Positions 2,701 through 9,303 of a stretch of 43,174 bases of DNA are shown in pieces. Source of the stretch: a virus; IMG/VR virus record IMGVR_UViG_3300047444_000168, positions 1-43,174 of that record; one strand, 5' to 3'. A model generated the notes under the pieces. That model was not told the DNA's origin. It worked only from the letters and a program-made list of their open reading frames with translations, and ran no database searches. A program made the position numbers and the translations under genes. Each line of letters begins with the position of its first letter. Positions within the stretch are counted from its first letter, which is position 1.

Positions 2701-4539
2701 GTGGCCTTCGATCCCCACGTTGATCTCGCCGTCAGTGCGGTCGCCGTCGCACCCTCTCCGGCGCTCTCTGGCACGACGTTCACGGTCACGGCTGGACAAG
2801 GCGCTCGGTTCCCGAATCCCGGCACGCAAGGCTATGACCTCGTGGCGTGGGCGTTGGGCACGATGCCCGACCCCACGAATGCGGAGATCCTGCGGGTTAC
2901 GGGGCTCACGGGGGACGTGTTCACGGTTGCGGCGCGTCCGTATGCCGTCACGAATAACGGGAACCGGGCGATTCTGGTGGGCGATCTGGTGGCGTTGGCG
3001 ATTACCGCCAACCTACTGCAAGACATCGAAGCGGCCCTGCCCGGTCCCACTGGACCCACCGGGCATACTGGCGTCACCGGCCCCAGCGGCAGCACGGGCC
3101 CGACTGGCGCGCAAGGCACCGCGGCTCAACTGACCGGACCTACGGGTCCCACAGGCGCGACTGGCCCGCAAGGGACGGCGGCTCAACTCACCGGGCCGAC
3201 GGGTCCCACAGGACCAACAGGCGCCCAAGGGACGGCCGCGCAACTGACTGGCCCAACAGGGCCCACTGGCCCCACAGGGGCGCAAGGCACGGCCATTACC
3301 GGCCCGACCGGTCCGACGGGCATCACCGGACCGACGGGGGCACAGGGCACGGCGGCCCAGTTGACCGGGCCGACCGGACCCACCGGGGTCACTGGGCCCA
3401 CCGGAGCGCAGGGCACAGCGGCACAACTGACGGGACCGACGGGCCCCACCGGTCCGACCGGTCTCACAGGGGTGCAGGGCACCGCCATCACCGGTCCCAC
3501 GGGTCCCTCGGGCGCGACGGGTGCAACAGGCCCGACCGGTCCGACGGGCGTCACGGGCGACAAGGGCGGGCTTCGCTATAACTTCCTCACGGCCACGGCC
3601 AGTACGGATCCGGGCAGCGGGAATTTCAACTACAACAGCCCGACACTGGCGAACGTCACGTCGATGTATCTCAGTAACACCGACGCCTCTGGGAATAGCG
3701 TGGGTGCGGTCTTCCAGTCGGCGCAGGCGAATCCTGGTTACGTGTTCATCAAGAGCAACCTCGGGAGCAACGTCAACGCCTTCGTGGTCTCGACGGAACT
3801 CGCTCGGACCGGCTTCAATGAAGTGCTGGTGGCCTATGAAGCCGGAGTCTCCCCGCCCTCGAACACTGAGGCGTGCGTCTTCAACTTCAGTCGCAATGGC
3901 AACACGGGCCCGACTGGGCAGACGGGTGCGACCGGTCCCACGGGCATGACCGGGCCCACCGGGCCGACGGGTCCCAGTGGTCCGACGGGCCCGCAGGGGA
4001 CCGCGGCGCAACTCACCGGACCGACGGGTCCGACAGGCCCGACAGGACCCACGGGCCCGACCGGATCGCAGGGGACGGCCGCCATCCTGACGGGGGCGAC
4101 CGGTCCGACGGGCGTCACGGGACCCACGGGTCCGAGTGGCCCGACGGGCCCCACCGGCCCGTCTGGTCCCACCGGTTCGACAGGCGCCGGCTTCAATCCG
4201 GCCATCCCGCGCATCACGACGGTCAGCTCCACGGCGACACCCGTGCCGGATTCGAGCACCACGGACCTCTATGTGATTTCGACGCTGGCGGTGACGGCGG
4301 TCGTGGGCGCTCCCGTGGGGTCTCCGACAGGCGGCCAGTGGCTCGAGATGCTGATTCTCTGCACCGGCACGCAGAAAGGCATTACGTGGAGCACCTCGGC
4401 TGGTGGATACTTAGCCAACACGTTAGGCGTGACGTTGCCGGCGGTGACGACCACCAATCAGACGATTGGGCTCTCGTTCCGCTACGTGACGGCGAACTCG
4501 ATTAACAAGTGGCTGCTCTTGTCAAAGGGTGTGGGCTAA
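2701..4539 (+). CDS. Large collagen-like fibre protein
   Basis: 612 residues starting at GTG one base after the previous stop. Residues 1-115 form a globular beta-rich head. About 116-295 is a collagen-type Gly-X-Y region dominated by Gly-Pro-Thr, broken regularly by QGTAAQL-type blocks. About 296-398 is a non-collagen beta domain, about 399-500 is a second GPT tract with the same interruptions, and the C-terminal ~110 residues are a beta-rich cap. Trimeric collagen stalks are known in phage tail fibres. The many Thr in the Y position resemble the glycosylated repeats of Bacillus BclA. The stop codon overlaps the start of a glycosyltransferase gene, suggesting that this is the cassette's substrate (inference). 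Confidence 0.85.
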
Positions 4540-5429
4540 TGCGCGTCTCGGTCGTGATGATTTGCAAGAACGAGGAGGCGGTGCTGGCTCGCTGCCTCGA
4601 ATCGGTGAAGGAAGCCGACGAGATTATCATTTGCGATACAGGCTCCACCGACCGCACCATCGAGATTGCCCAGCAGTTCACGGATAAGGTCTTCACCGAT
4701 TACGTCTGGGAAGACAACTTTGCCAAGGCGCGGAACCATGCGCTGAGCAAGGCCACGGGCGATTGGGTGCTCTCGATTGACGCTGACGAATACCTGACCT
4801 GTCCCTTCAGCACGGTGCGTGAAGCGGTGGCGAAGGGGTTCATGGCGATCAACGTCAAGATGACGGCTGAATCCGGCCCGCCGTCCCACTTCTGGTTCCC
4901 GCGGCTCTTTCTGCGGTCCCCGAATGTCTGGTGGGAAGGCGCGATCCATAACCATATCTCAGTCATGGGTGAGGACGTGGGCGCGGTCACGCTGACCTAC
5001 GGCTATTCGCCCGCCCATACGCTGGATCCCTTGCGCTCGATGCGGATTCTGGAGAAGGAAGTGGCGGATCGGCCTGACTGCATCCGGGAGCGGTTCTACT
5101 TGGGTCGGGAATACTTCTACCGCGGCCAGTATGACCAAGCCCTGGTGATGCTCGGGCGCTACGTCCAGCAGTCGCGGTTCCTCGCGGAGAAGGCGGAAGC
5201 CTTCCTCACGATGTCGCGGGTCTATTGGGCGCTGCACATGCCCGACGATGCCCGGGATGCGCTGGTGCAGTGCCTGATTATCAATCCCAGGTTCAAAGAA
5301 GCCGTGCTGTTCATGGCGGAACTGGCGGGGGACGGGTCCAATAATCCCCGCTGGCAGAAGAATGCCGATCAGTGGAAGCGGATGGCGGAGACGGCGGATA
5401 ACGACGGCGTGCTGTTCCTGCGCACATGA
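4539..5429 (+). CDS. Family 2 glycosyltransferase with TPR-like C-terminus
   Basis: 296 residues. The ATG overlaps the collagen gene's TAA; an upstream in-frame start would extend back into that gene. The N-terminal GT-A fold is clear: SVVMICKNEE (4-13), CDTGSTDRT (32-40) and the DAD metal/nucleotide-sugar motif at 81-83 (LSIDADEYL). Residues about 185-260 are helical repeats of TPR style (YFYRGQYDQALVMLGRY, AFLTMSRVYWAL). This arrangement is common in SunS/WaaE-like GT2 enzymes that transfer a sugar to protein or lipid-core acceptors. The acceptor is unknown; the adjacent GPT-repeat protein is the obvious candidate. Confidence 0.85.
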   Translation: MRVSVVMICKNEEAVLARCLESVKEADEIIICDTGSTDRTIEIAQQFTDKVFTDYVWEDNFAKARNHALSKATGDWVLSIDADEYLTCPFSTVREAVAKGFMAINVKMTAESGPPSHFWFPRLFLRSPNVWWEGAIHNHISVMGEDVGAVTLTYGYSPAHTLDPLRSMRILEKEVADRPDCIRERFYLGREYFYRGQYDQALVMLGRYVQQSRFLAEKAEAFLTMSRVYWALHMPDDARDALVQCLIINPRFKEAVLFMAELAGDGSNNPRWQKNADQWKRMAETADNDGVLFLRT

Positions 5430-8729: not shown

Positions 8730-8736
8730 GCGCCTA

Positions 8737-9303
8737 ATGCTGCATGCACGGCACATCTCGGCCGTCTTCATCACGAAGGATCCCGTCTATCCGCAGGTGA
8801 TTGTGGACCGCGTGATGGCGATTGGCTTTGGGGAATGTCTGTTCTTGACGCACTGCGACAGCCCGCACCGGAAGCAGGACCTGTTCGCGAAGGCGCAGCA
8901 CGATTATCTCTACTATCAGGATGATGACTGCCTCGCACCGATTGCCCAACTGCTGGCAGCGGCGGAACCGAATCGCATTACCTGCGCCATGAAGCCGTCG
9001 CATCTGGCGTCCTATGCGAAGAGCCGGATCGCGCTGCTCGGGTGGGGCTCGATCTTCCCGAAGCGCACGATTCATGTGCTCGATCAGTATCGAGCGGTCT
9101 ACGGCGAGGATCATGTCTACAAGCGGGAGACGGAGCGGATCATGACGTGGCTGGCCTATCCGCAGACGCGGCTGGACCTCCCGATTGAGGACCTGCCGTC
9201 AGCGTGGGCGCCTGATCGGCTGTCCATGCAACCGGGTCACTACAACTACATTCCGCTGGTCGAGCAGCGGTGCGGCCTGCTCCGGCAGGAGGTCACCGCT
9301 TAA
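8737..9303 (+). CDS. GT-A-like glycosyltransferase, DxD type
   Basis: 188 residues from ATG 8737. HISAVFITKDPVYPQVIVDR opens like a GT2 domain and YLYYQDDDCLAP (about 60-71) carries the acidic metal-binding triad. The later RETERIMTWLAYP region may be the catalytic or acceptor helix. It is shorter than a full GT2 enzyme (usually 230 or more), so it is a minimal GT-A fold. It closes the glycan cassette and its stop overlaps the next small gene. Confidence 0.65.
   Translation: MLHARHISAVFITKDPVYPQVIVDRVMAIGFGECLFLTHCDSPHRKQDLFAKAQHDYLYYQDDDCLAPIAQLLAAAEPNRITCAMKPSHLASYAKSRIALLGWGSIFPKRTIHVLDQYRAVYGEDHVYKRETERIMTWLAYPQTRLDLPIEDLPSAWAPDRLSMQPGHYNYIPLVEQRCGLLRQEVTA

Follow-up and report, generated by a model that had tools for sequence, protein, structure and literature searches.

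The window analyzed here is the whole 43,174-nucleotide stretch of a single IMG/VR virus record, IMGVR_UViG_3300047444_000168, which belongs to a bacterial virus from soil. The ~43-kb record is probably a complete genome, as indicated by a direct terminal repeat of 127 bp, and it looks like that of a P22-type podovirus. Its virion genes encode a P22-type major head protein, portal, scaffold, terminase and the head-closure protein Hc3 (PHROG). Within this structural block, between MCP and Hc3, lies a run of mostly overlapping genes, all on the forward strand: a collagen-like fibre (COL1), a family 2 glycosyltransferase with tetratricopeptide repeats (GT2-TPR), a PIG-L/methyltransferase, a DUF6625 protein, a sugar 3-C-methyltransferase, a small GT-A-like protein and then Hc3. 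The initial annotation had described a 612-residue fibre rich in Gly-Pro-Thr (GPT) joined to GT2 by a stop/start overlap, and both features stand: COL1 (2701-4539; 612 aa) matches Pfam Collagen at 1.1e-24, and its stop codon shares TAATG at 4537-4541 with the GT2 start. Reading-frame overlaps continue from GT2 through the PIG-L/methyltransferase, DUF6625 and C-methyltransferase genes. Beyond what had been annotated, a 37-codon open reading frame (ORF; 9303-9418), read from the sequence, links the end of the cassette to Hc3 with a TAATG overlap on each side, so that the cassette is tied to virion genes through COL1 at one end and Hc3 at the other.

COL1 begins with a head at its N terminus and ends in a C-terminal domain; between them, a globular insert separates two blocks rich in Gly-X-Thr (GXT). 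Thr occupies the Y position in 56 of its 83 Gly-X-Y triplets, 38 of which are GPT. The protein matches PHROG tail fibre families, weakly so for the head without its repeats (4e-4), and as a structural-block gene product of the phage collagen-like tail fibre type it is a predicted virion component and the proposed acceptor of the sugars discussed below. Two further GXT-rich proteins, absent from the initial annotation, could be additional GT2 acceptors: COL2 (12431-12817; forward strand), with Thr at Y in 11 of 19 triplets, and COL3 (42723-42977; forward strand), with Thr at Y in 13 of 15. COL2 is retained in two related contigs where no GT2 exists (L006 and L009), and therefore does not need GT2 there. 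COL3 sits directly upstream of the first gene of the window, across the terminal repeat.

The enzyme assignments originally made for the next four genes are all backed by Pfam matches. GT2 (4539-5429; 296 aa), the proposed priming Thr O-glycosyltransferase, has Glycos_transf_2 (2.4e-22) and C-terminal TPR_14 domains, both above the Pfam cut-off, and its DTGSTD, DADE and WEGxxHNH motifs are conserved in alignment. Its nearest solved relatives in the PDB, GmaR (2e-29) and SunS (1e-15), both modify proteins or peptides. The following gene (5426-6475) encodes a PIG-L-like de-N-acetylase fused to a class I methyltransferase (349 aa; Pfam 1e-7 and 2e-8, respectively). PF02585 scores 32.7 bits against a cut-off of 28.2, and the alignment shows no variation in the metal-ligand motifs PHDDD and GGHPxHD. 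Enzymes of the PIG-L family strip the N-acetyl group from GlcNAc derivatives, and the presence of this domain would fit a GlcNAc-primed glycan. The DUF6625 protein (6469-7293; Pfam 3.9e-23) found no match in a PDB profile search. Its AlphaFold model has a pLDDT of 69 and gives weak Foldseek matches, nearly all the best of which are GT-A enzymes; because the fold matches are weak, we call it only a probable GT-A glycosyltransferase.

The sugar 3-C-methyltransferase-like protein (7260-8534) matches Methyltransf_13/23/14 (3e-54) and shows near full-length, three-domain homology to the D-mycarose 3-C-methyltransferase MtmC (1e-64) and to TcaB9 (8e-53). Its active-site motif reads DTICHEH, compared with DTIYHEH in MtmC and DQIYDEH in TcaB9; the Cys that replaces the Tyr of both solved relatives is present in the window and in six relatives. 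No recognised deoxysugar supply is encoded by the window phage; this and the Cys both weigh against the sugar chemistry proposed below. The last cassette gene (8737-9303; 188 aa) had been put forward as a second GT-A gene. It is kept in two other cassettes (L209 and L210) and carries a conserved YYQDDD motif, the feature from which the putative GT-A label is taken, while family searches and a PDB profile search returned nothing for it. A fold model of this protein was set aside at a pLDDT of 47. Between it and the C-methyltransferase gene is another ORF not noted before (8547-8729), which encodes 60 hydrophobic residues, probably membrane spanning, in a region with a GC content of 49% compared with 61% for the genome. 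Most relatives have no gap at this site; in L008 and L020 it measures ~590 bp.

In the IMG/VR relatives examined, the cassette and the collagen gene upstream of it are present or absent together. Each cassette-bearing contig has a collagen gene directly upstream of GT2, the outcome of a check proposed with the initial annotation, and this includes the divergent L027 and L028. In L028, which comes from a different metagenome and is 64 to 75% identical, the order collagen, GT2, PIG-L/methyltransferase, DUF6625, C-methyltransferase is kept behind a gene that resembles a portal of another type, and in L027 (82 to 88% identity) the module stands on yet another backbone. Conversely, L006 and L009, with an Hc3 90 to 91% identical and a different capsid, have neither COL1 nor any cassette gene, and neither contig yielded a GT2. 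Cassette genes have dN/dS values of 0.01 to 0.13 in every computable pair, meaning purifying selection; this and the intact cassettes of relatives argue that the arrangement is not due to chance. As separate observations, the capsid gene of L006 and L009 is closely followed instead by a gene for a group 1 (GT-B type) glycosyltransferase (L006:1561-2634, L009:3810-4958), and the 76271-base contig IMGVR_UViG_3300046535_001151 (L027/L054 and L007/L019) carries two modules on different backbones near both ends and is possibly a chimeric assembly.

What is constant across phages is the GT2 and collagen pair alone, around which tailoring genes have been fused or exchanged. L209 encodes GT2, a PIG-L-DUF6625 fusion, a GDP-mannose 4,6-dehydratase, an epimerase-like gene, a methyltransferase and the small GT-A-like gene, whereas in L211 the GT2 is accompanied by a methyltransferase and a rhamnosyltransferase-like gene. 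The dehydratase and epimerase-like genes of L209 (6900-9870 of that contig) suggest that its deoxysugar donors are made by the phage. L216, L221, L222 and L225, the last a 527-kb phage contig, have GT2 beside a collagen gene, upstream or downstream, with no recognised cassette. Taking the phage GT2 clade as sequences of at least 41% identity on several backbones, Pfam collagen is found on 15 of 20 whole contigs (L028 included) versus 2 of 20 for remoter GT2s. Counted per locus and outside the window's own group, a GXT collagen ORF accompanies 14 of 19 clade members versus none of 20 remoter GT2s, with the proviso that the loci are related rather than independent and that p-values are thereby inflated. 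Three of the five clade contigs without collagen are shorter than 8 kb; L219 (36 kb) and L223 (22 kb) are, so far, real exceptions. The reverse test, starting from random phage collagens, gave a trend only (p 0.065). No full-length member of the clade was found in annotated phage records, where the matches are distant and mostly of 23 to 35% identity. One of these is in MW202524, a podovirus that has another sugar cassette after its capsid gene; the 12 kb looked at there contained no collagen.

The same partnership is apparent in cells. The cellular relatives of the phage GT2 are clostridial GT2-TPR proteins of ~360 aa. A midpoint-rooted tree made by quick search places the phage sequences (20 rows, support 100) and the short clostridial ones (44 rows, support 99) as two clades in one part, separate from long, GmaR-like clostridial forms. 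Among 291 Clostridia genomes drawn evenly, a GXT collagen gene lies no more than 1 kb from 19 of 54 short GT2s but from none of 26 long ones. In a core clade, chosen from the tree after it had been viewed, 18 of 38 genes are this close to a Gly-X-Thr collagen gene, for which we estimate a chance expectation well under one, given the handful of collagen genes in each 2- to 3-Mb genome. By genome, Pfam collagen is present in 32 of 35 with a member of this same post hoc clade versus 68 of the other 256 (12 of the 44 that have other GT2s, and 56 of the 212 that have none). Inflated p-values notwithstanding, the GT2-collagen pattern recurs in separate lineages.

We consider it probable that the locus is a virion-glycosylation module, whose cassette glycosylates the phage's own collagen fibre. 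The initial annotation had proposed such self-glycosylation of the collagen stalk, and the linkage to collagen in both phages and Clostridia lends the proposal support. It had also offered modification of a host surface glycan as an alternative, whereby the cassette would remodel O-antigen or capsule to block superinfection or change the receptor, with proximity to the fibre reflecting linked host-recognition functions. This is a common interpretation of phage glycosyltransferases (PMC7029224), and the PHROG label of GT2 is a moron-type beta-1,4-glycosyltransferase. We nonetheless regard it as improbable. Although GT2, PIG-L and C-methyltransferase families are also found in polysaccharide clusters, the hallmarks of gtr serotype-conversion cassettes, namely a GtrA-type flippase, a GtrB bactoprenol transferase and a membrane glycosyltransferase, were not found in this one by Pfam and composition. 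The five conserved cassette enzymes have no membrane segments, which disfavors O-antigen conversion. Furthermore, the cassette sits inside the structural block and overlaps the COL1 and Hc3 frames, and remodeling of the host surface would leave the clostridial collagen linkage unexplained.

Known systems point to the fibre more directly. Clostridioides difficile SgtA, a 358-aa protein with a GT-A domain and four TPRs encoded immediately upstream of bclA3, uses UDP-GlcNAc in the presence of Mn to attach beta-O-GlcNAc, in vitro, to Thr in peptides made of GPT repeats (PMC7157674). Compared by description, SgtA and the phage GT2 are alike in joining a GT-A domain to C-terminal TPRs and in adjoining a GPT-rich collagen gene (PMC7157674), and the Thr of GXT triplets is the acceptor in the former and the predicted acceptor in the latter. 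The phage enzyme differs in being shorter (296 versus 358 aa), in being encoded after rather than before the collagen, and in its pairing with a predicted virion fibre and a dedicated tailoring cassette. Clostridial relatives with SgtA-like length (~360 aa) and neighborhood adjoin the phage clade in the tree. The initial annotation had turned to BclA of Bacillus for comparison. As a collagen-like GXT protein that carries a methylated sugar (PMC6222408), Bacillus anthracis BclA remains a valid analogue, but its rhamnose and anthrose tetrasaccharide is made by the bacterium, the window has no recognised genes for making rhamnose or anthrose, and SgtA/BclA3 is the better match.

Other enzymes share part of the proposed activity. 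GmaR, the Listeria flagellin O-GlcNAc transferase, and SunS, a peptide S-glycosyltransferase, modify proteins or peptides like the proposed GT2, but their acceptors are flagellin or a bacteriocin, GmaR is a 637-aa protein with an anti-repressor part, and its long clostridial relatives show no collagen link. Mimivirus, too, modifies collagen with an enzyme of its own (PMC9546862), although this is an amoebal virus whose enzyme acts on galactose linked to hydroxylysine, with no O-glycosylation of Thr in GXT repeats. Mycobacteriophage glycosyltransferases are phage encoded and thought to modify virion proteins of the phage itself; there the suggested acceptor is the capsid rather than collagen (PMC11256854), and the literature searched describes no collagen-linked cassette. 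This precedent (PMC11256854), together with the many structural-block proteins that have no assigned function, could be taken to mean that the enzymes act on another virion protein, such as capsid, neck or tail, with collagen a mere neighbor. That is rather less likely still, as the partner common to phages and Clostridia is collagen and not a capsid gene, and Thr-rich triplets of this kind are the known acceptor of SgtA. Least credible of all is mere co-residence of the collagen and the sugar genes in a hotspot that lies between capsid and head closure. This interval is indeed variable (witness the different sugar genes near the capsid gene in MW202524 and the group 1 glycosyltransferase in L006), but the GT2-collagen pair recurs in Clostridia and on the 527-kb L225, GT2 occurs on either side of the collagen gene, and remoter phage GT2s have no collagen pairing.

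For glycosylation of the phage's own fibre, we infer an acceptor, a donor sugar, an order of steps and a benefit. GT2-TPR would O-glycosylate Thr at the Y position of the Gly-X-Thr triplets of COL1, as SgtA does on BclA3, with its TPRs perhaps holding the collagen chain. The first sugar would most likely be GlcNAc, drawn from host UDP-GlcNAc. PIG-L could then de-N-acetylate the amino sugar and the fused methyltransferase methylate the product, while DUF6625 and the small GT-A-like protein may attach further sugars and the 3-C-methyltransferase may make or modify a branched deoxysugar from host nucleotide-sugar pools. Possible benefits are a stiffer fibre, shielding from proteases or antibodies, and adsorption. 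Hydroxyproline is generally assumed to be missing from the collagens of bacteria and phages, so dense glycosylation of GXT Thr would be a plausible substitute stabilizer and shield.

More broadly, and with somewhat less assurance, we favor the view that several phage lineages carry a transferable glyco-collagen module, in which a Thr-specific collagen O-glycosyltransferase and a GXT fibre are combined with phage-specific tailoring enzymes, so that virions would display stalks coated with custom sugars, independent of host protein glycosylation. SgtA/BclA3, the BclA glycans, the mimivirus collagen glucosyltransferase and the suggested glycosylation of mycobacteriophage capsids were already known; the literature searched, which excluded most subscription papers, yielded no description of a phage-encoded module for collagen O-glycosylation. 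Phage glycosyltransferases are usually annotated as modifiers of O-antigen or DNA, and this GT2 family points instead to the phage's own fibre, a rule that can be tested on a class of phage sugar genes still without an explanation. Because GT2 is short and soluble, and in some phages the sole sugar gene product encoded beside collagen, it could serve as a convenient tool in the production of glycosylated recombinant collagen; natural variants that differ in their tailoring enzymes are available among its relatives.

Rfam and tRNA searches gave no matches. Elsewhere in the window, in a PHROG scan of ten genes between 19 and 34 kb, eight were without a family match. The product of one gene, at 27729-28238, resembles an RNA polymerase sigma factor in its C-terminal part (phrog_351, 5e-10).
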